The position numbers were made by a program, and so were the translations under genes. Below the pieces are notes generated by a model. It was given only the letters and a program-made list of their open reading frames with translations, made no database searches and was not told where the DNA came from. DNA of 64,000 nt from Anaerolineales bacterium (GTDB taxonomy: Bacteria; Chloroflexota; Anaerolineae; Anaerolineales; JABWBV01): NCBI GenBank assembly GCA_020634875.1, contig JACKAX010000009.1, positions 44,143 through 108,142 on the forward strand, written 5' to 3'. Of this stretch, positions 22,416-57,355 are shown piece after piece. How positions within the stretch are numbered: the stretch's first letter is position 1; each line of letters begins with the position of its first letter.

Positions 22416-22447
22416 AGTATATGGAAAGATCGATCAGAAAACGATCA
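22416..22447 (-). promoter_or_regulatory. Promoter with two TGATCG direct repeats, 11-bp period (copy 1)
   Basis: On the minus strand TGATCG (22447-22442), TTTTC, TGATCG (22436-22431), 9 bases, then TATACT (22421-22416) as -10. The start codon of the giant protein is about 64 bases downstream of the -10. The same layout occurs at 27397-27428 and 35958-35989. Direct repeats one helical turn apart, next to -10, are typical of SARP/BTAD activator sites. Confidence 0.65.
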
Positions 22448-22450
22448 TTA

Positions 22451-22491
22451 AGCCGCCAGGGAGGCTTGATAGGAAAGCTTCCCCGGCGGCT
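22451..22491. other. GC-rich hairpin upstream of the giant gene's promoter
   Basis: AGCCGCC (22451-22457) pairs with GGCGGCT (22485-22491), and the inner bases can extend the stem imperfectly around a GATAGG loop. It lies about 95 bases beyond the stop codon of the preceding minus-strand gene and abuts the direct-repeat promoter. There is no T-run, so it is a possible mRNA 3' end rather than a clear terminator. Confidence 0.45.
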
Positions 22492-22584
22492 CTGGGCAAC
22501 TGTGTAACGATCACGCGCTTGGGCAGAGTCCTCCCGAAGTTTGTGGCGAAGGGGGGCGGTTCAAAGCCTATGATAGAAGAACAC

Positions 22585-24354
22585 TCATGGAACGACGATG
22601 ATCGTCCCGGTCATATTCGGGTATGAGGTGTCGTGATAGGGATAGCTGCCAGCCGTAGTAAACTGGAATTGAAATGTTCCCCCAGGCGCAATTATCCCGC
22701 TGTCCCAAGCGCCGGTATCGCTGGTGGCTGTGTGATCTACCGGGTCAAAATTTTCCCATACTACACTTGCATTAACATGGATGGTGACAACTTTGGGGAT
22801 GTAGCTAAAGTCAATGATGGCGACATAGCCATAGCCTTCTACCGCCGTAGGAGTGGGCGAAGGGGGCGTACCTTCCGCGGGCATGGTCGCGGTGGCCATA
22901 GGGGTTTGTGTAGCGGTAGGGACTGGTGGCGTATTGGTCGGTGTGCTGGTTGGGGTCGGTGTGTTTGTGCCTGCATTAAGGATCAAGGGCAAAAAAACGG
23001 ACGGAGGCAAGATTGATGAGGTGGGTGTTGGTGTGGAAGTAACCACAGGGGTTGTGCTTGTTGGGGTTTGTGTGGCGGTGGCGCTGGCGGTCGGCGAAAC
23101 GGTAGGAGTGGCCAGGCCCGCCGAATCGTATTCGTAAGCGCCCATGTCACATACACCATTGCGTACATAACCGCGTTGATCCGTCAGCAACGCTTCGTTG
23201 TTTTCATCGGTGCAGCCTGACGGATTACCGGCATCAATGGCCGGGCTGCCGGTCAGCAGGGGCTGAGTCTGTGTGCCGCCCCCATTGAGGCCCAGAACAT
23301 CCAGGTTGGGGTCGCTGCCGGTCAGATTGCCGGTGATATCGCCGTTGATCGTGCAGCCGGAGGTGACCTCGATCAGGTTGTACCCCCCGCTGGTCAATTC
23401 CCCTGAACAGTCCTTAGATCCATCAACCAGGTTTACATTATCAGCTAAGATGCTGTTTTGCATGGTGGTCATATCGCCTGGGAATGTGTAAAGCCCACCA
23501 CCATATCCGGAGGTTCCACTGGTTCCGGCAGTGTTGTTGGCGATGGTAACGTTATACAGGTCAAGTGTGCCGCCGCTGAATATGCCTCCCCCGTGGAAGG
23601 CGGCAGTGTTGCCGCTGATCGTGCTGTTGACAATGGTCAACGATCCGCTTGAATTGATGCCACCGCCACCGCTATCGGTCGTGTTATTCACGATTGCGCT
23701 GTTATAGATATAGGCTGTGGCCCCAGCCTGGATGTTAATTCCACCACTCAGACTGTTGACGACCCGGCTGGATGTGATTTCCAGGGTGGAGCCGTTGATC
23801 ACATAAATGGAAGTAGATGAACCGGCAACGGTGTAGCCGACGCGAGCGCGCAACAGCGATAGAGAGGATGATTCGGCTATGCGGATATTACCGCCAGCCG
23901 CTGTGCTATTGCCGCCGTGAAAGGAGAGATCAGTGATGCTAACCAAAGAGCCACTCCATAGCTCGAATACCCGGTCGAGGCCATTAGCGTCAATGATGGT
24001 GTCTACCAGCCCAGCTCCTTGAATGGTCAGATCGTCTTTGATATCGAGATCACCGGTCGCGGCATCGTTCTCGCTGGTACCGGCCAGGCTGAATGTGAAA
24101 GTACCCGATGGTAGGATGATCGTGTCGGCACCGCTGCCAGCCGGACAGGCATCTACCGCGGCATCTGTATTGGCGGCGATAATTGCCTCACGCAGGGAGC
24201 AGTTGCCGTCATTGTTCAATTCGTCGGCTGTCGTATTCACGGTGATTGTTCCGGCCAGCGCGTATTGCATGGGAATAGCGACCCAGAGCAGGCCGCCCAG
24301 GAAAACGGTCAAGATAATCGCGGTGAGGGGTTTAGGGAAATGAGGGGGGTTCAT
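22585..24354 (-). CDS. CSLREA-domain beta-helix surface protein with C-terminal cupredoxin-like domain
   Basis: ATG 24354 is preceded by AGGAG with a 7-base gap, giving 589 residues; a longer frame to 24414 lacks such a site. A signal peptide (about 8-34) is followed by the CSLREA box at C52. Residues about 70-330 are right-handed beta-helix repeats with SG.ISGNTA turns. A choice-of-anchor-Q-type region follows (GSPAIDAGNPSGC, DQRGYVR, GAYEYD). A Thr/Pro/Ser stalk contains the motif PPSVFLPLILN, which is terminal in sister proteins. About 100 further residues form a cupredoxin-like domain: WENFDPVDHTAT keeps one His, but the usual Cys and second His are missing (PYHDTSYPNMTG). Copper binding is therefore doubtful. 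It lies downstream of the 840-residue gene with a 60-base gap. Confidence 0.85.
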   Translation of the reverse strand: MNPPHFPKPLTAIILTVFLGGLLWVAIPMQYALAGTITVNTTADELNNDGNCSLREAIIAANTDAAVDACPAGSGADTIILPSGTFTFSLAGTSENDAATGDLDIKDDLTIQGAGLVDTIIDANGLDRVFELWSGSLVSITDLSFHGGNSTAAGGNIRIAESSSLSLLRARVGYTVAGSSTSIYVINGSTLEITSSRVVNSLSGGINIQAGATAYIYNSAIVNNTTDSGGGGINSSGSLTIVNSTISGNTAAFHGGGIFSGGTLDLYNVTIANNTAGTSGTSGYGGGLYTFPGDMTTMQNSILADNVNLVDGSKDCSGELTSGGYNLIEVTSGCTINGDITGNLTGSDPNLDVLGLNGGGTQTQPLLTGSPAIDAGNPSGCTDENNEALLTDQRGYVRNGVCDMGAYEYDSAGLATPTVSPTASATATQTPTSTTPVVTSTPTPTSSILPPSVFLPLILNAGTNTPTPTSTPTNTPPVPTATQTPMATATMPAEGTPPSPTPTAVEGYGYVAIIDFSYIPKVVTIHVNASVVWENFDPVDHTATSDTGAWDSGIIAPGGTFQFQFTTAGSYPYHDTSYPNMTGTIIVVP

Positions 24355-24414
24355 TTTAATACTCCTATGAAAATAGCAGGTTGGATTTTTGCAGAAAACG
24401 CAAAAGCGCTGCAT

Positions 24415-26937
24415 CTATCGAATGACCAGGGGCAGGTAAATATTGGTCTCCGGGGATACCTCGCTGACCACCTGAACTTGAACCGTTTCAGAAACACTGC
24501 TGAGCGGATTTGCCGCAGTGACGGTCACGGTATAGGTATCTGAGAGGGAGTAGGTATGTGCGAGGGGGTTGCCATTGGCTAGCGGAGACCCGTCGCCAAA
24601 ATCCCATGTGTACGAGACTCCGCTCCCGCCCGTGACAATAGCAGTGAAGGTGACCGGAGTCCCGACCGTGACAGTGGGGCTGGGCGTAAAGGCGATGCTC
24701 AATCCGGTGATGGTGCTGACCTCATCGTAGCCGATGTCGAACCCTGCACCCTGTGGACGGGCGTCCCCCTCAAAGTCCACCAGAATCCCCGCGTTTGTCC
24801 CCACATCCACTGCCGCTGAGCCGAGACTGAGATGGTAATCATTGAGGGTCGGGTCCAGGAAATGCGGATCGCCCGCGACATTATGTGTGCCTCCCGTGAA
24901 AGAGCCGGTGATGTCCGTAGCATTAGCGAAGAACAGGTTGTAATCCTGAAGCAGTGTCCCGTTGGAATTTTCGATCCCGGTTGTGTGGTGGGTGAAGATC
25001 GCGTTGGAGAGTACGAGGTTGGCCTGGGCTATGAAAATGCCGGTTTGGGGAACATCTTCCCGACCAACGACGGTGAGATGAGTCATTGCGACGGTTTGCG
25101 GGGAAATCAGATAAAGCGCCGTGCCTTGGTTCGCGATGTTGCGGGCAAAGAGGGAGTTTGCCATCCATCCGGTGTACGCGTCGTGGTACAACCCACCACC
25201 CTCGTCTGCCTGATTTTCGAGAAAGGTGCTGGACAAGATCACCCACGGGCCGGACATGAACAATCCGCCTCCGCGTTCGCCAGCAGTGTTGTTTAGGAAA
25301 GTGGTTTCTGTCGCGGTCAAGGTTCCGTTGACCGCCATGCCCCCACCGTATGCTCCACTTACATTGTTTTCTAGCCTGACTTTTGTGATCGAAATGGTCT
25401 CATAGGCAAAGATGCCGCCTCCATCCATACTGGCAGTGTTGCTGATAAGGCTGGTATCCAAGATATTGACGGGATAATTGGCATATACTCCGCCGCCATA
25501 ATCGGCCTGGTTGTTTTGGAACACACTTTGTCGGAGATGGACATTTCCTAAATAGTTATTCAAGGCGCCCCCGTATTCGCCTGTGTTGTCTTCAAATTGC
25601 GCTTCGTTTACCCAGACTTCACCGAATTCGAGGAATAACCCGCCGCCTTCCGTGGCAGAGTTACGGACGAAGGTTGTGCCAGTCAACTGGAGGCCGCTCA
25701 CGATGTACGCACCGCCCCCGCCATCCATGCCTTGATTGCCTTCAAACTGTCCACCGAAAATTGTGGCCTCCCCGTCAATGTAAATTCCGCCTCCGTAGTA
25801 TGCGGTTGTGTTACTAATAAAAACGGTATTCGTCATCGTCAGTGTATTGAAGTTGCTGTACCCGCCACCACTGTCTCCACTATCATTTTGAAGAAAACTA
25901 CTATCTTTGATCCAACCTGGCCCTTCGCTGTACGCCCCACCACCTCGATACCCGGCATGATTTTGGATAAATGTGGAGGCGTACAAAATCAAATCCTGGT
26001 AGGTATAAACACCGCCACCAGAATCAGAACTATCATTCCCTTCAAACCATCCCTGGTTGATTCCTGCGTTTTCGTAGGTGTAAATACCGCCGCCATTATC
26101 GTCCGCAGTATTGCGAATGAATTGAGTGCCGGTTAATACAAGGTTGTGGACATTCAGTCCTCCGCCTCGATAAAAGCTATAGTTTTGCTCAAAACTTCCG
26201 CCCGTTAGCCACGCATCGGTGTCGGCAAAAGCTCCGCCCCCTTTATTTGCTGTGTTACTCACAATAACGGTGTTTTCCATGATCAACCACGCATCTGAAT
26301 AAAGACCACCTCCATCTGTGCCCGAAGTGTTGTGCTCGAAATATCCATCCTCTACGACGAGGCCGTTCCCTGCATACACCCCGCCCCCTTGATCACCTGC
26401 GTTGTTATTCAATACCGCGACCCGGACGAGGTACAAGGCCCCGGAGTTCTCTATGCCCGCGCCTGTTCCCGCGGTTGTGCCGTTTTGCACGGTCAGATCA
26501 GCGATTTTGACCGGAACACCCTCCGCACGCAGGCCGCGATGACTGGCATTGCCGTCAATGATCAAACTCGTCATCCCTGTGCCAGAGATGGTCAGTGTGT
26601 CCGTGATCAGAGGGAGGGGATTCGGCGGGGCGATGACACACGGCGTGGCGGGGGTACAGCCGGGGATATCGAACGTGATCGCATCCGCACCGGGATTGGC
26701 GTTCGCTTGATTGATCATAAATCGGAGTGATCCTGGTCCCTGGCTGTTTGTGTTTGTCACAACGTAGGTGATCCCGACCGGAAAATCTGGAATATCTGGG
26801 AGGCGCAGGCTGTCCGACGCGTGAGCCTGAACGAAGCGGGGGTGTCCAAGCCCTATCCAAAAGCCTGCGCTTAAAAGAATGCCCATGCATAAAGTCAGCG
26901 CTAAATGCTTCAAGCGAAAAGTTTTGTTGTTCATCAT
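24415..26937 (-). CDS. Secreted beta-helix protein with PKD domain and IYLPLVIR C-terminus
   Basis: A protein of 840 residues. A hydrophobic signal segment (LALTLCMGILLSAGFW) is near residues 12-30. Residues about 60-640 are dozens of short beta-helix rungs with recurring SGGGVY/GGGLY and N.A...GGG patterns, typical of polymorphic outer-membrane-protein-like and parallel beta-helix adhesins. A pre-terminal segment (DPHFLDPTLNDYHLSLGSAAVDVG) resembles the end of choice-of-anchor-Q proteins. A PKD domain (about 750-825, YTWDFGDGSPL) comes before the final NIYLPLVIR. Two adjacent ATGs (26937 and 26934) are possible; GAGGA lies just upstream. A strong terminator stands only about 30 bases upstream, so expression probably depends on read-through from the SMR-like gene. 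Confidence 0.85.
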   Translation of the reverse strand: MMNNKTFRLKHLALTLCMGILLSAGFWIGLGHPRFVQAHASDSLRLPDIPDFPVGITYVVTNTNSQGPGSLRFMINQANANPGADAITFDIPGCTPATPCVIAPPNPLPLITDTLTISGTGMTSLIIDGNASHRGLRAEGVPVKIADLTVQNGTTAGTGAGIENSGALYLVRVAVLNNNAGDQGGGVYAGNGLVVEDGYFEHNTSGTDGGGLYSDAWLIMENTVIVSNTANKGGGAFADTDAWLTGGSFEQNYSFYRGGGLNVHNLVLTGTQFIRNTADDNGGGIYTYENAGINQGWFEGNDSSDSGGGVYTYQDLILYASTFIQNHAGYRGGGAYSEGPGWIKDSSFLQNDSGDSGGGYSNFNTLTMTNTVFISNTTAYYGGGIYIDGEATIFGGQFEGNQGMDGGGGAYIVSGLQLTGTTFVRNSATEGGGLFLEFGEVWVNEAQFEDNTGEYGGALNNYLGNVHLRQSVFQNNQADYGGGVYANYPVNILDTSLISNTASMDGGGIFAYETISITKVRLENNVSGAYGGGMAVNGTLTATETTFLNNTAGERGGGLFMSGPWVILSSTFLENQADEGGGLYHDAYTGWMANSLFARNIANQGTALYLISPQTVAMTHLTVVGREDVPQTGIFIAQANLVLSNAIFTHHTTGIENSNGTLLQDYNLFFANATDITGSFTGGTHNVAGDPHFLDPTLNDYHLSLGSAAVDVGTNAGILVDFEGDARPQGAGFDIGYDEVSTITGLSIAFTPSPTVTVGTPVTFTAIVTGGSGVSYTWDFGDGSPLANGNPLAHTYSLSDTYTVTVTAANPLSSVSETVQVQVVSEVSPETNIYLPLVIR

Positions 26938-26965
26938 TTACTTCCTCATAAAAAGAATGCAACCC

Positions 26966-27015
26966 AAAATAAGAGACAGGCGGAGATTACACATTCTCCG
27001 CCTGTCTCTTATTTT
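26966..27015 (-). terminator. Strong terminator or attenuator between SMR-like and beta-helix genes
   Basis: Arms of 21 bp (26966-26986 and 26995-27015) pair perfectly around an 8-base loop, with A/T-rich outer ends. It lies 15 bases past the stop of the SMR-like gene and about 30 bases before the start codon of the 840-residue gene on the same strand, leaving hardly any room for a separate promoter. Confidence 0.85.
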
Positions 27016-27029
27016 GAAATTTTTACGTG

Positions 27030-27338
27030 TCAAATTCGGAGCAAAAGAATGCCCAGGACCACTACCAAGGCCCCCAAAATTCGCGTCATTGTCAGCCCCT
27101 CATTTAGGAATAATGCCCCAATGGTCATCGCCGTAATTGCCTCAAAGCCAAGCACCATAATGTAGGTGAGCGTCATTTCGGTATTTCGCATGGCGTACAT
27201 TTGCAGACCTGCCCCTAAACAAAATAGCCCCATCACCAAGGCCGTTGGACCGCCTTTGGTAAGCCCGTGGGATAATTTCATAAAATACCCTCCGACGCTA
27301 TAACTCATGGCGGCTCCTAAAAGAAACATGATTTGCAT
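27030..27338 (-). CDS. Small four-helix membrane protein of SMR/EamA type
   Basis: 102 residues from ATG 27338, which has GAGG about 6 bases upstream. Four hydrophobic helices fill the sequence (about 3-19, 31-48, 56-77 and 83-100), the length and layout of small multidrug resistance proteins. The membrane Glu that drives proton-coupled drug export in EmrE-type members (near residue 14) is absent: helix 1 reads LLGAAMSYSVGGY. A role in ordinary drug efflux is therefore unlikely; related small EamA-type proteins move lipid-linked sugars or polyamines, which is possible but not shown. The TGATCG direct-repeat promoter is 59-90 bp upstream, placing this gene at the head of a unit with the two beta-helix genes. 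Confidence 0.75.
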   Translation of the reverse strand: MQIMFLLGAAMSYSVGGYFMKLSHGLTKGGPTALVMGLFCLGAGLQMYAMRNTEMTLTYIMVLGFEAITAMTIGALFLNEGLTMTRILGALVVVLGILLLRI

Positions 27339-27396
27339 AGTTACCTCTTTTTTGTTGTGTGGATAGTTCTTCATCGCTCTTTCACCGTTAGAAACG

Positions 27397-27428
27397 ATTT
27401 TAGTGAATGAACGATCAGAAACCGATCA
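27397..27428 (-). promoter_or_regulatory. Promoter with two TGATCG direct repeats, 11-bp period (copy 2)
   Basis: On the minus strand TGATCG (27428-27423), GTTTC, TGATCG (27417-27412), 9 bases, then TAAAAT (27402-27397). Spacing is identical to copies 1 and 3. The start of the SMR-like gene is about 58 bases downstream of the -10. Confidence 0.65.
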
Positions 27429-27453
27429 CAAAACAACCCAATCGGAGGCTTTT

Positions 27454-27621
27454 TTATCTGTCCTGACCATCAGGTAATGTGCCGCTCGTGAGTGTAAATG
27501 TTTCGCCCAACACATTCGTTATGTCACTCAGCCTGCAATACTTACCGATCAAGCTAAGCCCTTTGCAAACGACAAAAAGCGCTCCAACTAAAATCGCGAA
27601 ACCAAAAATTGCCTGTGCCAT
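27454..27621 (-). CDS. Single-span membrane peptide (55 aa), unknown function
   Basis: The frame opens further upstream, but ATG 27621 has a near-perfect AAGGAGAG about 5 bases before it, so the product is 55 residues. Residues about 4-24 (AIFGFAILVGALFVVCKGL) form one membrane helix; the rest is a polar tail with no known motif. It follows the 68-residue gene by 16 bases on the same strand and lies before the copy-2 promoter. No family is recognised. Confidence 0.6.
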   Translation of the reverse strand: MAQAIFGFAILVGALFVVCKGLSLIGKYCRLSDITNVLGETFTLTSGTLPDGQDR

Positions 27622-27637
27622 TGTTCTCTCCTTGTGA

Positions 27638-27844
27638 TCAAGTCGTTTTATCCTCCGATACCTCGGAAACTGGAAAAACCTGTGCAACTACATCCCGAAA
27701 GACCGCCAAAAATTTTTTAAACGAATCAAAGTGATGGATATCCGCCTGCCCTACTTGTTGGAGCGAGCCGTGAAGGTGGGACGAAGTATCGCTATCCGAA
27801 TCAAGTCTCATTCGCAAAATAAAGGTGACGTATTGGGACTTCAT
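27638..27844 (-). CDS. Small protein of the Y.F.LR...HFDS..KFL family (68 aa)
   Basis: The N-terminal strand QYVTFILRMRLD, the middle GSLQQVG and the C-terminal HHFDSFKKFLAVF match a pattern seen in two other small proteins of this window (33285-33479 and 52670-52890). Proteins of this kind are frequent in Chloroflexota next to regulators and surface proteins, with no assigned function. The ATG lacks a clear ribosome site. It precedes the 55-residue membrane peptide by 16 bases and follows the BTAD regulator gene, separated from it by a terminator. Confidence 0.6.
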   Translation of the reverse strand: MKSQYVTFILRMRLDSDSDTSSHLHGSLQQVGQADIHHFDSFKKFLAVFRDVVAQVFPVSEVSEDKTT

Positions 27845-27998
27845 TTGTAATCATTGTAGAAGTTGTCTATCGTGAAGATGTCGGCCTCGCGCGAGTTTTC
27901 CCCGCTGTTGTGACAAAAACAAGGATGAAAAATGGTAATTTTGGGAAGGGAAAACCACCGCAGAAAAACTATTGTGACAAAATCCCCCCAAAAACCCT

Positions 27999-28040
27999 AA
28001 AAAGAGAGCCTGCTGATGGATTTCAGCAGGCTCTCTTTTT
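27999..28040 (-). terminator. Terminator after the BTAD regulator gene
   Basis: Arms of 18 bp (27999-28016 and 28023-28040) pair perfectly around a 6-base loop, with five A at one end and five T at the other. It starts 8 bases past the stop codon of the minus-strand regulator. Confidence 0.9.
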
Positions 28041-28047
28041 CGCACAT

Positions 28048-31000
28048 TTACTTTCGCTTTCTGGTCGGTAGCTCGGAAAGTTCCTCAGACAAGGTTTGCA
28101 TATCTCGCAAAATCGTTCTGCGGCTGACTCCCAACGCGTCCGCGAGATCATCATCGGTGGGAGTGGCCCCACAGGCTCTGGCTTCATCTAAAAGCCGCTT
28201 CAACCGGTAGTGGCGTTGAGCCGTCTTGTCGGGGAAGGCTTCATCTTCGGGCGCGTTGACTGTCCAGTTGATGGAAACATACTCATCGGAACGGAGCAAA
28301 CGGCCCAGTGGGGCTTCACTCCGAGCCAGAGATACGTTCACTTGCCGGATGGTTTGAGATAGCTGGTCATAGGCGGACACAATGGCCCGATTCACGGGCA
28401 CACGCGTGAAAAAGCCCCGCCGTAGTTCGGGGTCGTGAATGGCGCATGCCTGACGTTGGAGTTCCGCATACGCTGCGCGGATTACCGTCTGCATATCCGT
28501 TTCTCGGCCCAGTTTTTGCAAAAGCAGGCCGAAATACCATAGCCAGTTTTGCGCTTTTTCCCCGACCGGGAACCCAGCCTGAAAGGCAACAAACACTTGT
28601 TCGGCCAGCGCTTCAGCCTGGTCACGCTCCCCCAGTGTTAAATGTACCAATGCCAGATATGTCTCTGCCTTGAGTAGACCCAAGTGATCTTCTTGCTTAA
28701 TCCAGGCCTCACGCGCGGCTTCCAGGTAGGGAAGGGCCTCGTGAGGTTGTTCGAGACGCCATAGGAGGGTTCCTAAATCTTGCTGGATGATCGGAATATC
28801 GCGTTCATCTTCCTCTGGGTCTACCTCAGATAATGCTTCCCGGTAAAGCTTGAGCGCGACGTCATCCTGCCCTTCGTCCTCAGCGACCAATCCCAATCCC
28901 CCTAAGATCAAAATGGACCGGGCTTCCGCCGCCTGGAAATCCTTCAACGCACCCTGAAAATGCTCCCGCGCGGGGCCATAATCCCCTAAGTTGAAGGACG
29001 CCAGAGCCTGTAACTGCCGCAAATAACCAGCGTTATACCGGTATCCCAATACCTCCACCTTTGGCAACAAGTCTTTCACGGTTGCCAGCAGTTGGTCCCA
29101 CGCACCGAGGTCATAGCAGGCCGTCACAATGTTCGAGTGGGTAGTCACTTCGCCCAATCGGTCGCCCGCCTGGCGGTGAATCTCCAACGCTTGTTCCAGC
29201 CATTGGATGGAGGTTTTGGGGTCGCCCATGTCGCGGGCCGCGATGCCCAAGCCGCGTAAAGCGCGCGCTTCCAGCGAAAGACTGGAAATCTTCCGGGCCA
29301 GTTTGAGCGCGCGGGTGTAATAATCAATGCCTTGTTTACTGCGGCGATTATCGGTTTCATTCATCCCCAGGAGCAGATACGCCTCCGCTTGTCGGGAATA
29401 GTCCTTCAGTTTTTGGGCCAGCGTCAACGCTTCTTGTAAGCATTGGCCCCCATCGGCAAACTGATAGGCCTGAATCAATGCCCGCCCTTTCGCCAACAAA
29501 GTGCGGAGTTCCAGCGCCTTTGCGCGGAGTTGCCGCGCCCCGGACAAGGCACCTGCCAAAATTTCAATTTGCCGGGTTCGCTCGCCCAATACATCAGATG
29601 CCCAGGCTAACCCTAACATGATCTCTACCCGTTCGGTTGTCACGGTAGGAGGCAAAAGCGCCAGCGCGCGGTCGAACGCGGCGCGGGCCTCGCGGTAGGC
29701 AAACCGAGCCAGGTCTTGATCCCCCGCGCGGTGGTAAGCCTCGGCGGCTGTGGACGTTTGCCCCGCCCGGTCGAGGTGGAATGCGCGGGAACGGGCGTTT
29801 TCGGGTTCCAGGGTCTGGTAAACGTGGGCCGCGCGGGTGTGGAGGGCGCAGCGGCGGTCTTCTGGGAGTTGGTCATAAATCGCAGTGCGGATCAAATCGT
29901 GGACAAAAGTAAATCCCATAGGGGACGAATTCAGCCAGGGGGCGGCAACCAGTTCATCGGCAGCGGCGGCGAGGGATAGCGGGGGCATCTCCACCATTTG
30001 GGCCAGAAGGGGGTAGGAAAGCGTTTCCCCTAAAACGGATGCGCATTCCAACACTTGCCGCGCTTCAGGCGAGGTCGCTGCCAGACGTTGGGCTACGGTG
30101 AACGCGCCGGTGGGGGCGCGATGTTCAGGCGCGGCGAGCCACTCGGTCAGGCGGAAGGGGTTGCCTCCAGTCAGGGCGTGGAGGATGATGGGGTCTACGT
30201 GCGGTTGGTCTTCCACCCATCGTGCGACCTCGTTCACGGTGAGCGAGGTCAAGGAGATTATGGTAAGCAGGCCATCGCGATCCCAACTTTGTAACTTTTC
30301 CCAGCCAATGGTTGGCTCGACTTCGGCACGGCGATAAGCCAGGATGAGAAGCGCGCCATGTTGGGTGAGGCTGTGGGCGAAGTGAGGAAGGCTTTCCCAC
30401 AGGGCGGGGGAGGCCCAGTGCATGTCATCGAGAATCAGCACCAACGGGGTGAGTTTAGCCAGGGTTTGTCCGAAAGTGCGGAGGGCGTGGGTGAACGCGC
30501 GTGGGGTGGTTTCGGTAGTGGCGTGGATGTGCCACGCGAGGTAGAGGGGGGCGAGGGCAGCGAGGATTTCTGGGGGAAGCAGGGATTCGATTTGTGCCTG
30601 GCGCGGTTCAATCAACGGGGTGAGGGCGTTTGACAGTGGGGCGAAGGGTGAGGCCTCGGGAGTTTCGCTGGCGATCCCTTGCAGGACAGTGGCTCCCCGC
30701 CAACGTGCGCCTGCGGTCATTTCCCGCAGGAGACGGCTTTTGCCCAACCCTGCATCTCCCTCCAGCGCAAGGATGCCACCTTTGCCTTGTAAAGTGCGTT
30801 CGACCGCGTCGAGCAGGGCCGCACGTTCGGTCGCGCGCCCGATAAAGGGCATCCGCTCTTGAGGGGCGGGGCGTGCAGCCAGGGCGCGTTCTTGTTCGAG
30901 GGCATGGAAAATAGCCTGCGTTTCGGCCAGGGGTGTGGTTTCGAGTTCTTCCTGGAGCGTCTGGCACAGATATTCGTAATGGGCGAGGGCTTCGGCGTAG

Positions 31001-31602
31001 CGCTGTAAACGGCCTAACAGGCGGAGGTAGGTCCGGTGGGCGGGTTCGTGGAGGGGTTCGGCGAGGATGAGACGCCGGGTAGTGAGAAGGGCTTGCTGGA
31101 GTTGCCCGGTCGATTCTTGGTGCGAGGCAAGATTTTCGAGGGCAATGAGGAATTGGTTCCGGCGCAGTTCGCGTTCGGGCAGAATCCAGTCGTCGTAACA
31201 GGTGGGGAGCAGATCTCCCGTATACAGGGTGATAGCTTTTTGCAGGTCGCCGGGATTAGGACTGGCCGCGAGACGGTCAAATTCCCATACATCCACCCAA
31301 AGCGGTTTGTCTTTGCAGAGGGCAACCGTTTCGCTCTCGGTAAGGAGCCAGTCATTTCCCAACGTTTTCTGCACGCGGTAAAGCGTGTCCGAAAAGTTGC
31401 GGCGGACACGGTCAAACGGCGCATCGGGGAAGAGCAGGTCGGCTAACTGCTCACGCCCTTGTGGGACAGGGTGCAGGAGCAAATATGCCAACAAGCTCTG
31501 GGCTTTTTCGCCAGAGAGGGGGATATTTTCTTGTGCTTCTTGAATTTGCAACGCGCCAAAAAGGAAAATTTGTCGCGAAATGGGAAATGCCATATACTCC
31601 AT
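28048..31602 (-). CDS. BTAD (SARP-like) regulator with AAA ATPase, TPRs and a second, C-terminal HTH
   Basis: 1184 residues. Residues about 10-100 match the OmpR-like winged helix that precedes BTAD in SARP proteins, and about 100-245 are the BTAD helical repeats (ITLYTGDLLP, YLCQTLQEELETTPL). An AAA/STAND ATPase follows with Walker A GDAGLGKS (282-289) and Walker B LVLILDDMHW (about 390). TPR repeats fill about 590-1080. The end (about 1145-1172, DDDLADALGVSRRTILRDMQ) is another helix-turn-helix, an unusual addition. Such proteins are cytoplasmic ATP-dependent transcription activators. Start could be ATG 31602 or 31593; neither has an ideal ribosome site. It lies downstream of the 794-residue surface-protein operon on the same strand and is a candidate controller of the TGATCG promoters. 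Confidence 0.9.
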   Translation of the reverse strand: MEYMAFPISRQIFLFGALQIQEAQENIPLSGEKAQSLLAYLLLHPVPQGREQLADLLFPDAPFDRVRRNFSDTLYRVQKTLGNDWLLTESETVALCKDKPLWVDVWEFDRLAASPNPGDLQKAITLYTGDLLPTCYDDWILPERELRRNQFLIALENLASHQESTGQLQQALLTTRRLILAEPLHEPAHRTYLRLLGRLQRYAEALAHYEYLCQTLQEELETTPLAETQAIFHALEQERALAARPAPQERMPFIGRATERAALLDAVERTLQGKGGILALEGDAGLGKSRLLREMTAGARWRGATVLQGIASETPEASPFAPLSNALTPLIEPRQAQIESLLPPEILAALAPLYLAWHIHATTETTPRAFTHALRTFGQTLAKLTPLVLILDDMHWASPALWESLPHFAHSLTQHGALLILAYRRAEVEPTIGWEKLQSWDRDGLLTIISLTSLTVNEVARWVEDQPHVDPIILHALTGGNPFRLTEWLAAPEHRAPTGAFTVAQRLAATSPEARQVLECASVLGETLSYPLLAQMVEMPPLSLAAAADELVAAPWLNSSPMGFTFVHDLIRTAIYDQLPEDRRCALHTRAAHVYQTLEPENARSRAFHLDRAGQTSTAAEAYHRAGDQDLARFAYREARAAFDRALALLPPTVTTERVEIMLGLAWASDVLGERTRQIEILAGALSGARQLRAKALELRTLLAKGRALIQAYQFADGGQCLQEALTLAQKLKDYSRQAEAYLLLGMNETDNRRSKQGIDYYTRALKLARKISSLSLEARALRGLGIAARDMGDPKTSIQWLEQALEIHRQAGDRLGEVTTHSNIVTACYDLGAWDQLLATVKDLLPKVEVLGYRYNAGYLRQLQALASFNLGDYGPAREHFQGALKDFQAAEARSILILGGLGLVAEDEGQDDVALKLYREALSEVDPEEDERDIPIIQQDLGTLLWRLEQPHEALPYLEAAREAWIKQEDHLGLLKAETYLALVHLTLGERDQAEALAEQVFVAFQAGFPVGEKAQNWLWYFGLLLQKLGRETDMQTVIRAAYAELQRQACAIHDPELRRGFFTRVPVNRAIVSAYDQLSQTIRQVNVSLARSEAPLGRLLRSDEYVSINWTVNAPEDEAFPDKTAQRHYRLKRLLDEARACGATPTDDDLADALGVSRRTILRDMQTLSEELSELPTRKRK

Positions 31603-31678
31603 CTTTTGATTGTAGCGAGGGAAAAAGAGGAGACAAGTCGGGTAAAGGTCTTATTAGACTTTATCGGTAATCGCCGAC

Positions 31679-31739
31679 CAGGTGCGTGGTACGTGACTCT
31701 AGGGCAGAACCAGATACGTTCAAACATACCGCGCACCTG
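31679..31739 (-). other. Inverted repeat between the 280-residue membrane gene and the BTAD gene
   Basis: CAGGTGCGTGGTA (31679-31691) pairs with TACCGCGCACCTG (31727-31739) with one mismatch, over a 35-base loop. It begins 18 bases past the stop codon of the upstream gene. There is no T-run, so its role in ending or processing the operon mRNA is uncertain. Confidence 0.4.
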
Positions 31740-31756
31740 ATGGACGATAACGTCTA

Positions 31757-32599
31757 TTATGTGTCCAGCAAGGTGTACACCATCGAACACACGCAGATCA
31801 GGGCTGGCAATCCCAAAACGACTAGGCCAGTGATTACCCAGGGGAGGTGTCGGGCGGGACCGGGGGTAGGGGGTACGGGGGCTGGCAGGTGCGGTGAGAG
31901 GGTTTCGGTTTCGATAGATTGGGCAACGGCGAGTAGGTCATCTAGCAGGGTTTGAAACTGTTTGGGAGACTGAGCAGCGTCGGGGTGTTCGAAAAGCAGG
32001 AGCATGGACGCGTCAGGAAGCATTTCGGGCGGCAGATCAGGAATTTCAGCGCGCGAACCGTAGGTCAAGTTACGGAGGCCGGGTGTGAAACGAAGCGTGA
32101 GATCTTTTTTGAACCCGGTGGGGTAGCCTTTGTAGGCAAAGGTTAACATTGCTTGCCGCGCTGCGGTGGATAAAAACATGCCTGGCGATACGTCAAATGC
32201 CTCCGTGAAGGATTGGGGAATCCCTTTCGTCCCGCGATGGTGTGTGACAAGGCCAGGCGTGGCGGGCGTTTGGACGGGCATTGCAATCCGCAGATAGAAG
32301 TGGACCCCTATCCGGTTTCTGTCACCAGAATAGTAACGGTATATCTGTCCTCGGACATTGATGGCGATGGGCCGTCCCTCGTAAGTGCCGCTGTACCAGG
32401 TTTTCAGGATATGTCCTTCATTTACACGAGTGTAGCCTAATTTCTCGGCGAGTTTTTTGTGGGCAAGCCGATTTTGGGTGAGGTTGATGGCGGTAGTGTA
32501 AACGATCAGGCTGATCACCAGCGTGGGAAAACAACATAGAAAGCCCACAAAAAATAAGGTCTGAGCAATTTCGCGCAAAGCAGGAAGGATTTCGGTCAT
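31757..32599 (-). CDS. Membrane protein with two terminal helices, unknown function (280 aa)
   Basis: Hydrophobic segments lie at about 14-38 (FFVGFLCCFPTLVISLIVY) and 254-277 (WVITGLVVLGLPALICVC); about 200 residues between them would face one side of the membrane and contain a beta-rich domain (TWYSGTYEGRPIAINV). A Pro-rich spacer (PHLPAPVPPTPGP) precedes the second helix. No family is recognised. Its ATG overlaps the stop codon of the lipoprotein gene by one base (TAATG), so translation is coupled. It is the last gene of the four-gene unit that starts with the 794-residue surface protein. Confidence 0.75.
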   Translation of the reverse strand: MTEILPALREIAQTLFFVGFLCCFPTLVISLIVYTTAINLTQNRLAHKKLAEKLGYTRVNEGHILKTWYSGTYEGRPIAINVRGQIYRYYSGDRNRIGVHFYLRIAMPVQTPATPGLVTHHRGTKGIPQSFTEAFDVSPGMFLSTAARQAMLTFAYKGYPTGFKKDLTLRFTPGLRNLTYGSRAEIPDLPPEMLPDASMLLLFEHPDAAQSPKQFQTLLDDLLAVAQSIETETLSPHLPAPVPPTPGPARHLPWVITGLVVLGLPALICVCSMVYTLLDT

Positions 32600-33288
32600 T
32601 ATTTATTGATGTTAAAAAAGGTGACGGTTTCACGCATGGCGTTGTAAAGCGGGGCTACATCATCGTTCCACCGTTCGGTGGGGGAAAACGATGCCATGAT
32701 GAAACTTTGGTGATCGTTGGGAAGTGCGACGATCACGAAGATAGTGAGGTCGCTATCTTCGGGTTCGGCAAATGGGCCAGTGAATTCGATGCTTAACCCC
32801 GGAACCCCGCCGATGGTGAGTTCGGTGGGTTCGCCCATGGTGTATTCATTGCCTTCCGGGAAACCGCCATCGAAGGCTTGTGCGATGATATCGTTGAGAT
32901 AGTCTTCGAGTGTGGTTGGCGCATCGAGTAGCATTCCTATGAGGCTAAAGCGCGGACCGGTGGCGGAACGCTCGTCCGGGGCGGCGAAGAGGATTTGTCC
33001 GGGGTCTTCGATTAACTTCCACGTTGCAGGAAGCTGGACAGAAAACCCACCTTCGGGGCTGTGATAGATTTCGTCCAGGAGCAGGGGTTCAGGTGTTGTG
33101 GTTGGGGTTTCGGTGGGGGGCTGGGTCGGTTCGGGCGTGGGCGTGTTCGTCGGGAGGGGGATGGCGGATGGTTGGAGGGTTTCTGTTGGCGGCGCGGGGA
33201 CCGTGGGAGGCGGGGTTGGGCTTGCAATTTGACAGGCCATCACAAGGAGGAACGCGACAAAATATATAAGCCAACGGTTTTGTTTCAT
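32599..33288 (-). CDS. Lipoprotein with Thr/Pro linker and PsbP-like domain
   Basis: 229 residues. The signal peptide ends in the lipobox LVMAC with Cys at about residue 19, so the mature protein should be lipid-anchored. A Pro/Thr-rich spacer (about 24-68) leads to a globular domain of about 160 residues (YHSPEGGFSVQLPATWKL..., then FSLIGMLLDAP) that resembles the PsbP/Mog1 fold seen in many Chloroflexota lipoproteins. Ligand unknown. It overlaps the upstream 64-residue gene by four bases (ATGA) and the downstream membrane-protein gene by one base. Co-production with a surface protein suggests an envelope role. Confidence 0.8.
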   Translation of the reverse strand: MKQNRWLIYFVAFLLVMACQIASPTPPPTVPAPPTETLQPSAIPLPTNTPTPEPTQPPTETPTTTPEPLLLDEIYHSPEGGFSVQLPATWKLIEDPGQILFAAPDERSATGPRFSLIGMLLDAPTTLEDYLNDIIAQAFDGGFPEGNEYTMGEPTELTIGGVPGLSIEFTGPFAEPEDSDLTIFVIVALPNDHQSFIMASFSPTERWNDDVAPLYNAMRETVTFFNINK

Positions 33289-33479
33289 GATTGGGTTCCT
33301 TCAGGGGAATCAGATGTCTCCAGACGTTCATCCAGATAAGCAACCATTTGTTCAATGGAGGTAAAGCCGCGTCGTTCGCCCGTGTGAGGGTCTTCGAGTT
33401 GGATGCGCCAGGGGACGGTTTCATCATCCCGCCAAAAGCGCAGGAGAAAGGCGTGGTAGTGGAGATTGGTGGAGGTCAT
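33285..33479 (-). CDS. Small protein of the Y.F.LR.W.D family (64 aa), coupled to a surface-protein gene
   Basis: The sequence HYHAFLLRFWRDDE, then WRIQLEDP, then RRGFTSIEQMVAYL fits the same pattern as the small proteins at 27638-27844 and 52670-52890: an N-terminal strand with LR.W, a middle W.[IV].L strand and a C-terminal helix after F.S[IL]E. Its ATG overlaps the stop of the 794-residue gene (ATGA), and its stop overlaps the lipoprotein start in the same way. This tight coupling supports a real gene. Function unknown. Confidence 0.75.
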   Translation of the reverse strand: MTSTNLHYHAFLLRFWRDDETVPWRIQLEDPHTGERRGFTSIEQMVAYLDERLETSDSPEGTQS

Positions 33480-35863
33480 CAGCGCACAATGAGGGGGAGA
33501 TAGATTTGAGGATTGCCATCATCATCTTCAATGAGACCTGTGGCGGCGCTGGCGTAAATCGAGACAGGGTCGGCGTTGATCAGCCGCACAGAAAAGTTTT
33601 CATCGGATTCTTCTTCGAGGTCGCTGTACACCGTTACTGTGAAGGTTTGAGTGGTTTGTCCGGCGGCGAAGGTGAGGGTGCCGGAAGTCTCTTCATAATC
33701 TACGCCCGGTGTGGCGAATGTGCCGCCCACCCCGCTTTGGGTGTAGTAATCCACCGTGACGGGGAAGGAAGTGGGTAAGGAGAGTGTGACCGTGAAGGTC
33801 ATCATTTGACTTCCCGCATTGCCTTCGACGATGGGCGGGGTATAGGATAGGGAGAGGGTCGCAATATCATCGTCGAGGATAGTGGTTTGTGCGGTATCGT
33901 CCACGAGGGTGGCATTGCTGGCGTTGGTGAGCAGTACCGAGAACACTTCTGAGATGCCTTCATCTACGATATCCCCCAGGATAGGTACGCTGATCGTTTG
34001 CGTGACCACCCCGGGTGCGAAGGTGAGCGTGCCATTGATGGCGGTGTAATCACTTCCGGCGGAGGCGGTGCCGTTGGCTGTGGCGAAGTCTACGGTCACG
34101 GTTTGTGCATCTGCTGGGGATAGCGTTACGGTGAAGAGGGCGTTGGTGCTTCCGATATTGCCTTCGTTCACGGCCATATCGTTGATCGTCAGGGAAGGCA
34201 GGCCGTCATTGTCTACAATCGTCCCGGTTCCTACGCCATCCAGAATGTCGGCGTTGGCGTTGGACAGGTAGACGAAGAAAGTTTCGTTGGGTTCATCATC
34301 GGTGTCGCCGTTCACGAGCACGTTGATAACCTGGGTGGATTCGCCGGGGTCGAAGGTTAAGGTACCGTTGGTAGCCTGGTAATCGCTCCCTGCGGTGGCA
34401 GTTTCATCAACGGTGGCGTAATTGACCGTGACGGACTGGGTGCTGGTCGGGGTGAGGGTGACGGTAAACACAGCCGTGATAGTTCCGGTGTCGCCTTCAA
34501 GGAGGGTTGTATCGGCGATGGCGAGTTGGTTTTGAGCCTCAAACGCGCCTTTGTCGCAGGTGGCGGTGCCATCATTGTCGCCGTCGAATGGACGAGTAAC
34601 GCCGCGTTGGTCGGTTGTGGGGCAGCCGGTGTTCGTGCCTGTGTCAATGGCAGGACTGCCGGGGAGGAGGGCGTAGGTGAATGTTGGGCCGCTGTAATCC
34701 GCGAAGGGGGCGAGCATGGGGTCGGTGTTTTGGGTGTCGCCGGGTTGGGTGAAAGCGCAATACGTGTCACTAGATAGATTGTATCCCTCCGAAGTCCAGG
34801 TTCCATTGGCGAGGCATTGACGCCCCGCGTTGTTGGCAACGATGGTGTTTTTGAAGGTGACGGCCCCGCCCAGGCTTCCGATGCCGCCGTATTTGATGCT
34901 TGTGTTAGGGACGAGATTATCTGCAATCGTTGTATTCAATACAGTCATCTGTGCGATGGGATTAACAACCGCTGCGCCTGCATAATCGCTCCCGCTGTTG
35001 CCGCTGATGGTGACGTTGGTCAGATACATCGTGCCAAGTTCAACCAACACGCCGCCTCCGATGCCATCCGACTGATTTTGGAATATGGCAACCCCGGCCA
35101 GGGTTGTGACCCCATTGCCGGTATTATCCACTCCGCCGCCGGAAATTCCCGCATGGTTGTTTCGGAAGGTGGAGTCTGCGGCAGTGAATTGGCCCGTATT
35201 GTAAACACCCCCGCCTATTGCAGCATCATTCCAGCCAAATAGCGTGTTCATCGCATTCACTGTGCCGTTGAACCAAAGATAAATCCCTCCGCCTCCGCCA
35301 TCCGTCGTGTTGCTGACGATTTCGCTATTTTGGAGGGTGATCGGCCCACTTGTGAAGATGCCACCCCCACCCTCCTCCGATGAATTACCCCTGACACGAA
35401 CCTGGTCCAGCATCAACCCGCCGTAGTTGAGAATTCCACCCCCGGCGTTGATCGTGCCCGACCCGGTCATCAGTCCGTTTTGTACGGTCAGGTTGGTGAG
35501 TGTGATATGGGAACTGGCCGCGATAAACGTTCGCCCGGTTTGTCCACCATCCAGAAAGGTCGCGTCCATCCCCGCGCCATGGAAGGAAAGATCGAGGTTA
35601 ATGTCCAGATGTTCGACATATGTGCCCGCGGCAATTTCCAGGGTATCGCCACTGCTCGCTTTGTTTACAGTGCCCCCCACGGTTTCGCAGGCGGTCACGG
35701 GGGTGAGACAATCATTGTTGTCATCCCCTGAGTCTCCGTTGACATACCAGGTCACAGTGAAGGGCCTCTCCGCGGCGCGGGCAAACTTTGCGTTTCCTGC
35801 CAGGAAAACGGCAAGCATGAAAAATGACAAAAAGCAGGCAAAAAGAAGATATTTGGTTCTCAT
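33479..35863 (-). CDS. Secreted beta-helix protein with three Calx-beta domains and IYLPLIVR C-terminus
   Basis: 794 residues; GGGAG lies 7 bases before the ATG. A signal peptide (LLFACFLSFFMLAVFLAG) ends near residue 31. Residues about 40-340 are parallel beta-helix rungs (GGGGIFTSG, GGGVYNTG patterns), followed by a choice-of-anchor-Q-type block (GSPAIDTGTNTGCPTTDQRG). Three Calx-beta domains follow from about residue 455 to 785, each with [NE]EG..G and an acidic close such as DDDG, predicted to bind Ca2+. The C-terminus is PQIYLPLIVR. It heads a coupled operon with a small protein, a lipoprotein and a membrane protein, driven by the copy-3 TGATCG promoter. Likely a surface adhesin. Confidence 0.87.
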   Translation of the reverse strand: MRTKYLLFACFLSFFMLAVFLAGNAKFARAAERPFTVTWYVNGDSGDDNNDCLTPVTACETVGGTVNKASSGDTLEIAAGTYVEHLDINLDLSFHGAGMDATFLDGGQTGRTFIAASSHITLTNLTVQNGLMTGSGTINAGGGILNYGGLMLDQVRVRGNSSEEGGGGIFTSGPITLQNSEIVSNTTDGGGGGIYLWFNGTVNAMNTLFGWNDAAIGGGVYNTGQFTAADSTFRNNHAGISGGGVDNTGNGVTTLAGVAIFQNQSDGIGGGVLVELGTMYLTNVTISGNSGSDYAGAAVVNPIAQMTVLNTTIADNLVPNTSIKYGGIGSLGGAVTFKNTIVANNAGRQCLANGTWTSEGYNLSSDTYCAFTQPGDTQNTDPMLAPFADYSGPTFTYALLPGSPAIDTGTNTGCPTTDQRGVTRPFDGDNDGTATCDKGAFEAQNQLAIADTTLLEGDTGTITAVFTVTLTPTSTQSVTVNYATVDETATAGSDYQATNGTLTFDPGESTQVINVLVNGDTDDEPNETFFVYLSNANADILDGVGTGTIVDNDGLPSLTINDMAVNEGNIGSTNALFTVTLSPADAQTVTVDFATANGTASAGSDYTAINGTLTFAPGVVTQTISVPILGDIVDEGISEVFSVLLTNASNATLVDDTAQTTILDDDIATLSLSYTPPIVEGNAGSQMMTFTVTLSLPTSFPVTVDYYTQSGVGGTFATPGVDYEETSGTLTFAAGQTTQTFTVTVYSDLEEESDENFSVRLINADPVSIYASAATGLIEDDDGNPQIYLPLIVR

Positions 35864-35957
35864 AACTGGCTCCCGAAAGTAGAATTAAGCGCAAATGCTA
35901 TAATCCTTCCCGAATCGTTCGTTTATATGGAGAAGGATTAACGACATTTGTATTGCT

Positions 35958-35989
35958 ACTATAATAAGGAAACGATCAGAAAACGATCA
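35958..35989 (-). promoter_or_regulatory. Promoter with two TGATCG direct repeats, 11-bp period (copy 3)
   Basis: On the minus strand TGATCG (35989-35984), TTTTC, TGATCG (35978-35973), 9 bases, then TATAGT (35963-35958). It lies 95-126 bp upstream of the 794-residue surface-protein gene and about 85 bp upstream of the divergent BTAD gene, so it could serve both directions. Confidence 0.65.
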
Positions 35990-36073
35990 GACCCCGATAA
36001 TGAACTGTTTACCCAAGGTGGAGTGGACTTGTTGACGTCATCCCTATAAATCCCTTCAAGCCCACCCTACTTT

Positions 36074-39000
36074 TTGGATAGCCTTTTGAAGACCTCGCCT
36101 CCATCTTCCTCCCTGGAACTGCACCTTCTCGGTGCGCCTGTCATCTTAAATAGTGGGCAACCACTCGACGTCCCCTCCCGCACGGCAGAGGCGCTCTTGA
36201 TCTACGTCGCACTCCAGCCGCGTCCCGTCGCGCGCGAGTACCTCGCTGAACTGTTGTGGAGCGAGCGTACGCAAGATCAAGCCCAGGCAAATCTTCGCTC
36301 AATCTTGTCCAGTTTGCGAAAAGCGGTGGGAGATTGCCTCATCATCACGCGTCAACATGTCGCGTTTGACCCTGCACACGCCGCGCCCCTCGACGTACTC
36401 CAATTTGAGCTGGCAATGCAAACGCTTTATCCCCTCCTTCAGGGCGCGCTTACCCCCGAAACCTCTACTCAGTTGCAGGAAACCCTGGCTCTCTATCGCG
36501 GGGATTTTCTCGAAGGATTTTATCTACGGGATGGACGTGGGTTTGAAGAGTGGGCCACCTTACTCCGCGAACGTCTCCGCCGCACTGCCCATGCGGGATT
36601 CCGCACAATGGCGCGCCATGCCCTCGAACATGGCCAGTTTTCTGTTGGCTTACAATACGCCGAAAAGCTGGTGACCCTGGACCCTTACGACGAAGAAGCC
36701 CGGCGATTGCTCATGGAATTGCTTGTCCGCGGGGGCCAGCGCAACGCCGCCCTCCGGCAATACGAAACCCTGCGCCAACTGCTCGCTGCGGAATTGGGCG
36801 TTGAACCTGCCCCTGCCACCCGCACCCTCTCCGAACGGCTCCGGGGGTTGACCTTTCCCCCGCCTGTGCGCCTGCCCCCCAACCCCACGCCCTTCATTGG
36901 TCGTGAAGCGGAACTCGAAACCCTTTGGCAGGTGCTAGCCTCCCCCGCTCATCGCCTGATCACCTTATTTGGGCCAGGCGGGATCGGCAAAACCCGGTTG
37001 AGTATCGAAGCCGCCCGGCGATTTGCCGTTCACCGTCCGGGGCAATTCCTTGATGGCATCTTCTTTATTTCCCTCACAACCACCCCAGCCGCACAGGAAT
37101 TACCCACTACCCTTGCTGAAGAGATTGGCTTTCATTTTCGTGGCACGGATATCCCACTGGTTCAACTGCTTACCCACCTGCGCGACAAAGAAATGCTCCT
37201 GATCTTGGATAATTTTGAGCAGTTTTTTAGCGAGGGGGATGCAGGTACACACTTTCTTGTTGAAATTCTTGGTAAAGCTCCCCATGTCAAACTGCTCCTC
37301 ACCTCGCGTGAGCGGGTCAATCTGTATGAAGAAGTAGTCTTTGACTTGCCAGGGTTGGCCCTCCCCGAACCTACCTCGCAAAACCCCGAAGCCTTTAGCG
37401 CGGTGGCCCTGTTTGCCCAAACCGCACGCCGCGTCAAAACTGGTTTTGCTGTGACAGGCGAAGATGCAACCCAACTTGTGCAAATCTGCCGCCTGTTGGA
37501 TGGCACGCCCCTGGCATTGGAACTCGCCGCGAGTTGGGTGCGACAGTTTTCCCTCGCCCAAATCTACCGTAACCTGAAAGAAAGCCTGGACTTTTTGCAG
37601 GCCAACTACCGCAACCTGCCCGCGCGCCACCGGAGCCTCCGCGCGGTATTTGATTATTCCTGGGAATTGCTCACCCCGCCTGAGCAGGCTATTTTCAGTC
37701 AGTTGGCAATTTTTGAGGGGAGCTTTTGCCCTGCAGCGGCAGAGGCGGTCGTTAGTTTTCAGGCATCCGTCTTCAACCAGGAAAAACCCTCGCACGGGAC
37801 ACTCAATGCAGACACCTGGCTGGCCTCCCTCGCGGACAAATCCCTGCTCCAGCCTCAACCGGAAGGGCGATACGTACTTCACCCCCTGCTTCGCCAATTT
37901 GCCGCCGAAAAGCAAGCAGAATACACCGGCGTGTTGGACACTGCTCCCCAACGCTACACCGATTACTATCTGAATTTTGTCACCGAACTTGGCAGTGGCG
38001 AGGAGGCTGAACATCGCGCGGCCATCCGCGCAGATTTACCGAACATCCGTGCCGCGTGGCAGTTCGCCGCGCAAAAACGTGCTCTCGCCTACCTGGAGGC
38101 AGCCGCACCAGTATTACATAGCTTCTTCAGTATGCAGAGTTGGTTTTTGGAGGGGATCGAATGGTTTTCTTTTGCCCTGGCCCAATTTCCCGTTGAAGAC
38201 CCGCCCCCGCCTGCGTATGCTTCGACCCTTTGCGAATTACTTGGGCGCAAAGCCCGAATGCACATTCACATTGGGCAAATGGATGCCGCCCGCCCGGATT
38301 TGGAACGCGCGGCTTCGCTGATGCGCTACCTGGATGATCCTGACCGGCGTTCAGCCGTGTTGGGCTATCTGGCGATTGCTAACTACTACGCGGGAGATTA
38401 CACCACTGCCATTACGCTGGCCCAGGATAGTTTGGCACTTTCGGAAGAAACACAAAACGCGGAGGGATTGGCCTTTGCCCGCAATTTTTTGGGGAGTTGC
38501 TACAAAGCGCAGGGGGATTACTCCAGCGCACGCACCTCTTTTGAGCAAGCGGTGGCTGCATACAAAACCAACACGGATGGGGTTGGAGCGGCCATGGTGT
38601 TGAACAATTTGGGGAATCTCGCTCAGGCAATGGGGGATTTCGAAGGCGCGCAGGCCTACTACCAGGAATGTGCCGCCCTCTTCAAAACCCACGATCACAC
38701 CCACGGTGCGGCGACTACGCTCGCCAATGCGGGCAAACTCGCCCTTCGCCAGGGACAATTCGAGACCGCCCGCGCCATGCTCGAAGAAAGTCTCACCCTG
38801 AAACAAAGCCTCAACGACCAGCGCGGGATGGCCGTCGCCCTCGTCAGCCTGGGCGATCTCGCTGCCCGAACAGATGACCCTGCCCAGGCTCGTCAACATT
38901 ATTCCCAAAGCCTATCCCTCGCCCATAGCTCCGAGGATGTACGGCTGGCGGTGGATATTCTGGCAGCGGTTGTAGAGTTTTTGGTTACTTTAGGGGAAAC

Positions 39001-39252: not shown

Positions 39253-39295
39253 TGAACATTAACAAAATAATCCCGTAACTTTTGGATAGGGGTTT
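39253..39295 (+). repeat. IS630 terminal inverted repeat, left
   Basis: Starts TGAACATTAA, carries AATCCCGTAAC in the middle and ends GGGGTTT; each of these blocks is matched in the right repeat on the other strand. Confidence 0.8.
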
Positions 39296-47074: not shown

Positions 47075-47093
47075 TTCAGCCTCAATCCTGGAA

Positions 47094-48113: not shown

Positions 48114-48121
48114 GTGACACC

Positions 48122-57346: not shown

Positions 57347-57355
57347 TACCCCAGC

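Follow-up and report, generated by a model that had tools for sequence, protein, structure and literature searches.

Which regulator, if any, reads three identical repeats that precede genes for secreted and membrane proteins in an Anaerolineales bacterium (Chloroflexota, class Anaerolineae)? The repeats lie in a 64,000-nucleotide stretch of assembly GCA_020634875.1 (contig JACKAX010000009.1, positions 44,143 to 108,142), hereafter the window. Each site consists of two TGATCG hexamers with a period of 11 bp, followed after 9 bp by a TANNNT hexamer. The explanation that best fits the sequence, with a probability of roughly 85%, is that the direct repeats are operators of the large SARP regulator encoded at 36074-39160, which would bind them as a side-by-side pair and switch on three operons of secreted or membrane proteins.

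The window contains three exact copies of TGATCG-N5-TGATCG-N9-TANNNT, all on the minus strand, at the coordinates given for them in a preliminary description of this DNA. The repeat TGATCG-N5-TGATCG is found three times, against 0.02 expected from 100 dinucleotide shuffles; a search with the full pattern of repeat, spacer and −10, allowing up to three mismatches, returns the same three sites only (0 expected). The spacers of all three are likewise similar, NTTTC. A scan of the window for any exact hexamer repeat with a period of 11 and TANNNT 9 bp further on, in which the hexamers needed at least three different letters, also yields exactly these sites. The bare geometry is not in excess there, with 0–3 hits in the other period/gap cells, and the unusual part is that one hexamer is used three times. 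When two mismatches are tolerated and no −10 is required, the count of TGATCG-N5-TGATCG (10 found, 5.26 expected) is near background. The TANNNT hexamers presumably are −10 elements. From their ends to the start codon there are 64 nt at site 1 (ATG 22351), 58 nt at site 2 with ATG 27338 (22 nt with 27374) and 94 nt at site 3 (ATG 35863), in agreement, within counting convention, with the 52–95 bases proposed earlier.

The protein encoded at 36074-39160 has the architecture of a large SARP. Its N-terminal DNA-binding domain is directly followed by a BTAD domain (Pfam E 5.9e-23, residues 107–257), and matches to NB-ARC (E 1.2e-6) and TPR_12 (E 2.6e-29) are present as well. Residues 11–256 align with AfsR and residues 14–256 with EmbR; Pfam Trans_reg_C gave no match in this protein at E ≤ 0.001. 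Its best-scoring named relative comes from an Anaerolineales metagenome-assembled genome (61%). SARP operators comprise direct repeats in an 11-bp register, and some 8 bp separate the 3′ repeat from the −10 element (PMC10936776). This is the arrangement of the three sites, 8 bp counted from a heptamer being equal to 9 bp counted from the hexamer used here.

AfsR of Streptomyces coelicolor binds the two 11-bp repeats of its box over the −35 region as a side-by-side dimer and engages region 4 of the sigma factor, and its NOD and TPR parts modulate activity (PMC10936776, used here in excerpt). The earlier statement that SARP proteins bind 11-bp direct repeats close to the −10 is in keeping with this system. 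AfsR and its box in the afsS promoter resemble the present case in several respects: a DNA-binding domain and BTAD precede the NTPase and TPR parts, and the two repeats overlap the −35 position and end just before the −10 (PMC10936776). The system in the window differs in belonging to another phylum, in the letters of the repeats and in its targets, which are mostly secreted or membrane proteins along with a small protein and not afsS or antibiotic genes. It also differs in that many of the regulators are divergent from the repeat promoter, often with a companion gene of 64–80 aa. PimR and other SARP-LAL regulators are also large ATP-binding SARP proteins; they use heptameric direct repeats with 4-bp spacers, equivalent to an 11-bp register, and some of their operators lie between the regulator and a divergent gene. 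The main operator of PimR, as described in the available part of the source, has three CGGCAAG heptamers that do not overlap the −35 box, and its target is a gene for a PAS-LuxR regulator (PMC5930380). EmbR (PDB 2fez) is the best PDB sequence match to the DNA-binding domain and BTAD (E 4.8e-11), but it has a C-terminal FHA domain (PMC10936776, in excerpt) where the 36074-39160 protein has NTPase and TPR parts. Among the matches listed in a literature search, no described targets of Chloroflexota SARP regulators were found; one match concerned an MmyB-like regulator. The sites would function in the manner of Streptomyces SARP operators; their arrangement was not encountered in the literature searched.

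Large BTAD/STAND regulators are common in the class, with a match to the DNA-binding domain at E ≤ 1e-8 in 218 of 396 genomes, and their upstream regions can be compared. The regulator set was made up of 30 loci from the search, 80 taken by rank with their upstream DNA unseen, loci L001–L016 and the window. Of these 127 stretches, 124 have a domain match and 123 at least 100 nt upstream; removal of six near-duplicates leaves 117. Hexamers with fewer than three different letters were not counted. An exact repeat with period 11, gap 9 and TANNNT is present on the strand divergent from the regulator at 38 of the 117 loci and on the other strand at one; with one mismatch the figures are 57 and 5. 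Gap 9 is the peak of the period/gap grid, and period 11 stands out among periods 8–14: at the same gap, periods 8, 9, 10, 12, 13 and 14 give 0–1 exact matches on the divergent strand. Gaps next to 9 also show period 11, a probable sign that each repeat extends beyond six bases.

The location of site 3 and of the 57 homologous sites, in the upstream regions of the regulators themselves, would also suit operators that mainly repress or autoregulate the regulator. This is an improbable account, if the best of the alternatives. The regulator is 13.6 and 8.6 kb from sites 1 and 2; sites keep a constant spacing to the divergent −10, whereas they lie anywhere from 6 to 259 nt from the point where the aligned DNA-binding domain starts; and AfsR, whose box has the same geometry, is an activator (PMC10936776, in excerpt).

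The same association emerges when the search starts from a small protein. The site-3 operon contains a 64-aa gene, 33285-33479, that is absent from the list of open reading frames (ORFs) and overlaps both neighbours. A profile was built from 11 genes of this kind, each of them a neighbour of a site or regulator. No single Pfam or NCBIfam model had matches in more than one of the 11, 358 relatives were listed at E ≤ 0.001, and the family is present in 145 of 298 class genomes. Among 111 regulators (the 117 minus six with short upstream DNA), 36 have a small ORF on the divergent strand within 1.2 kb and none has one on the same strand; it accompanies 28 of the 54 regulators with a strict site, against 8 of the 57 without. 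Small-protein loci were then picked by score (30, then 60 more), rows near a contig end or already seen being skipped. In the 30 best, a divergent SARP lies within 900 nt at 20, and a repeat-N9-TANNNT is present at 20. Three of the further 60 have under 500 nt upstream. At the remaining 57, a divergent SARP is found within 1 kb in 42, and the repeat with TANNNT in 34, against one on the control strand; all 54 SARP domain matches beside the small gene in this set are on the opposite strand. Judging by this genomic association, the 64-aa gene belongs to the regulator/site module.

The predicted structure of the small protein consists of a three-stranded sheet and one helix. Because no signal-like start is seen by eye, the protein is read as cytoplasmic, serving the regulator as a dedicated partner or in feedback, and not as a surface protein; this reading is tentative, the odds being somewhat against it. 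One 233-aa protein (P0221) seems to be a fusion of the domain with CBS (PF00571), and the profile also matches inside long open frames of genome G148 (772 and 1150 aa); such matches may hint at a sensing role. At L199, L214 and nine of the 57 further loci, the repeat and −10 precede the small gene with no SARP in the approximately 1.3–1.5 kb examined. Their regulator may be encoded some way off, as would be the case for sites 1 and 2.

The letters of the repeat vary between loci (TGATCG, GGATCG, TGAGCG, GAAGCG, TGAACG, TTGGCG, TCGACG, ATCACG and others), and this variation follows the recognition helix of the regulator. The proximal hexamer ends in CG at 48 of the 57 sites, and these 48 were used in a first covariation pass; the full test comprised 197 regulators, 82 such CG-type sites and 24 clusters of DNA-binding domains, with L016 left out. 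In leave-cluster-out prediction, residue 76 is the best column for two bases: base 4 is predicted at 0.76 (runner-up column 0.62; majority 0.56) and base 2 at 0.68 (runner-up 0.57; majority 0.35). Ser76 goes with T at base 4 in 11 of 11 cases and Val76 with A in 9 of 10; Gln76 goes with A in 15 of 16, a link that emerged only from the later 57-locus set and is post hoc. Of 15 cases with Arg80, 14 have G at base 1. The rule derived from the first set (Ser with T, Thr with G, Val or Leu with A) fits 30 of its 36 sites and all five testable new ones, each of which has Val or Leu; the later 57-locus set contained no site to which the rule applied (0 of 0). In the alignment, residues 76 and 80 correspond to T88 and R92 of AfsR, the two residues reported to contact specific bases in the AfsR complex (PMC10936776, in excerpt); the covariation was found before these contacts were looked up. 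It would lend them support from another phylum.

A fixed distance to the −10 and an overlap of the repeats with the usual −35 position could also be expected if an alternative sigma factor, and not the neighbouring regulator, recognised the repeats as a class of promoter. This is slightly less probable again than autoregulation. A single sigma factor is expected to yield one sequence per genome, and the hexamer differs between loci even within a genome: G004 has a TGATCG-type site at C16 and other types elsewhere, and G389 has GGATCG and other types (L056, L080, L088). The hexamer also tracks the recognition-helix residue of the adjacent regulator, and the uniform orientation of the 54 SARP matches beside the small gene is a further point against a sigma factor.

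The preliminary description counted two BTAD regulators within or beside the block as candidate binders, and the domains are present in both, at 28048-31602 and 36074-39160. The former is located within the block and its domains include BTAD and AAA, but there is little chance that it binds the three sites. It is divergent to none of them, there is no CG-type repeat in 31600-32100, and its helix reads NFSD. Homologs with Asp76 mostly have A at base 4 (six of eight, with one G and one T), so this Asp fits TGATCG poorly. The 36074-39160 protein has Ser76, and its three sites have T at base 4, like those of the other Ser regulators. Because of this match, 36074-39160, and not 28048-31602, is likely the activator.

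Sites of the same form recur in relatives, where the proposed genome-wide search for the pattern was run; for the source DNA itself, the site count is that of the window. In eight genomes reached via regulator homologs, TGATCG-N5-TGATCG has 14 matches in six genomes, and the reversed control has none; TANNNT follows after 9 bp in all four matches whose spacer is NTTTC. TGATCGNTTTCTGATCG has seven matches in five of 396 class genomes (reversed-pattern control 0). When one match from G007 is added, TANNNT is found exactly 9 bp downstream in seven of eight; the miss, L031, is inside an ORF. The sites at L022, L032 and L033 are each placed divergently to a regulator homolog whose DNA-binding domain is 52–61% identical to that of the window. 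An ortholog of the 3254-aa protein encoded behind site 1 is directly behind the site at L027 (65% over 450 aa) and L034 (43% over 442 aa); at L043, a variant site is followed after about 1.1 kb by a 122-aa stretch similar to this protein. Another variant site, at L046, has a homolog of the 794-aa protein behind it (46% over 423 aa), and homologs of the 64-aa and 280-aa proteins behind a site at L017. Regulon content therefore appears to be partly conserved. Taken with the divergent-side repeats and the tracking of the helix, these targets support the earlier idea of a SARP/BTAD-controlled surface regulon. That the repeats are chance, or functionless copies of one duplicated promoter, is barely credible: the similar 794-, 840- and 609-aa proteins may have spread by duplication and the bare geometry is no commoner in the window than others, but one hexamer occurs far more often than expected, the geometry recurs in other genomes with an empty reversed control, and the one-strand excess across the class already disfavours it.

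Architecture, repeat period, distance from repeat to −10 and contact residues all agree with AfsR, so the most likely mode of action of the 36074-39160 protein is AfsR-like activation of the three operons. The two repeats, over the −35 region, would be occupied by two DNA-binding domains that contact sigma and RNA polymerase in the manner of AfsR. Activation may be gated by the NB-ARC/AAA and TPR parts in response to a signal.

Several results weigh against activation of the three operons by this regulator, or limit its reach. The strict rule finds no site in 60 of the 117 regulator homologs; among 14 siteless loci re-examined, L003 and L005 carry TAAGCG-N5-TAAGCG but a different −10 (no TANNNT at gap 9). 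The closest homolog, L013 (DNA-binding domain 75% identical), has no site alongside, and its genome has two elsewhere. In a phylum-wide set of 21 loci (28 examined, 26 with a match, five duplicates removed), there is little excess: 5 loci against 1 when a mismatch is allowed, 2 against none for exact repeats, and a site that is not CG-type among the five; because this count is small, the repeat/−10 rule is strongest within the class. The looser TGATCG-N5-TGATCG is mostly something else in relatives, since 10 of its 14 matches lack TANNNT at 9 bp and are chance-like. The SMR-like gene of site 2 and the 229-aa protein have no homolog in the 28 loci compared. As for the helix, residue 76 is only the second-best column for base 3 (0.63; best 0.65, majority 0.52), Thr76 goes with G at base 4 in just 12 of 17 cases, and residue 80 is outside the six best columns for base 1 in leave-cluster-out prediction. 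The link between the residue behind NLR and base 4 was first spotted by eye in the same data, the tests coming later. The small-protein-first evidence is not wholly independent, the profile genes having been taken from beside such sites.

Since the repeat letters change with the DNA-reading residues of the regulator, such regulons could probably be read from sequence in uncultured bacteria; the constant geometry, together with the link between helix residue and operator base, would let their targets be named. The association also points to an undescribed small-protein family as the likely partner of BTAD/STAND regulators. A wider picture, given not far short of an even chance, is that Anaerolineae possess class-wide private SARP switches: a STAND-SARP divergent from its own promoter, with a dedicated 64–80-aa tuning partner, would control surface or secreted proteins, and its operator letters would be readable from the helix, so that regulons of uncultured members become predictable.

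The features of the window are listed in the table. The genes of the site-3 operon and the second BTAD regulator are all on one strand, and this regulator is probably a product of that operon. The 794-, 840- and 609-aa proteins are similar to one another.

Table. Repeat sites, regulators and genes behind the sites (positions in the window; N-termini and membrane character judged by eye where marked)
Feature	Position	Strand	Details	Context
Site 1	22416..22447	minus	hexamers 22447-22442/22436-22431, TATACT 22421-22416	predicted operator and promoter of the 3254-aa gene
Site 2	27397..27428	minus	hexamers 27428-27423/27417-27412, TAAAAT 27402-27397	predicted operator and promoter of the SMR/EamA-like gene
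Site 3	35958..35989	minus	hexamers 35989-35984/35978-35973, TATAGT 35963-35958	between the divergent 794-aa gene and SARP gene; predicted operator and promoter of the 794-aa operon
Third, degenerate repeat	35995..36000	minus	TTATCG, weaker copy	one turn upstream of site 3
Large SARP regulator	36074..39160	plus	N-terminal DNA-binding domain, BTAD, NB-ARC/AAA, TPR; recognition helix NLRSILSSLRK	divergent from site 3
Second BTAD-AAA-TPR regulator	28048..31602	minus	Asp at the Ser76-equivalent position (NFSD)	downstream of the site-3 operon
3254-aa protein	12587..22351	minus	signal-like N-terminus (by eye), transglutaminase-like core, FG-GAP repeats, Ig-like domains	behind site 1
SMR/EamA-like small membrane protein	27030..27374	minus	start may be 27338	behind site 2
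840-aa protein	24415..26937	minus	signal-like N-terminus, Chlam_PMP repeats, PKD domain	downstream of the SMR-like gene
609-aa protein	22585..24414	minus	signal-like N-terminus, C-terminal cupredoxin-like stretch (below Pfam cut-off)	downstream of the 840-aa gene
794-aa protein	33479..35863	minus	signal-like N-terminus, Calx-beta domains	first gene behind site 3
64-aa small protein	33285..33479	minus	stop and start codons share bases with both neighbours	site-3 operon
229-aa lipoprotein-like protein	32599..33288	minus	N-terminus by eye	site-3 operon
280-aa probable membrane protein	31757..32599	minus	by eye	site-3 operon

Further BTAD regulators are present in the window. A third is split between two frames, as ORFs 53175-53660 and 53747-56269 (plus strand), and is faced by a shortened small-protein ORF, 52777-52962 (minus strand). 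Between them, four hexamers stand in an 11-bp register (TTCACG, TTCACA, ATCACG and CTCACG, from 53123 to 53085), with no TANNNT at 9 bp. These TCAC-type hexamers have A at base 4, as expected for the NLRQ helix of the third regulator; the match was noticed once the rule was in hand and serves only as a consistency check. The module at 52777-56269 looks decayed. A fourth BTAD regulator is encoded at 57356-60703 (plus strand), with no CG-type repeat in 56900-57360. A DDE_3 transposase-type gene, 39294-40169 (minus strand), adjoins the regulator at 36074-39160, and two multihaem cytochrome genes occupy 44716-48140 (minus strand), with cytochrome c3/c7 and MtrC-like Pfam matches.

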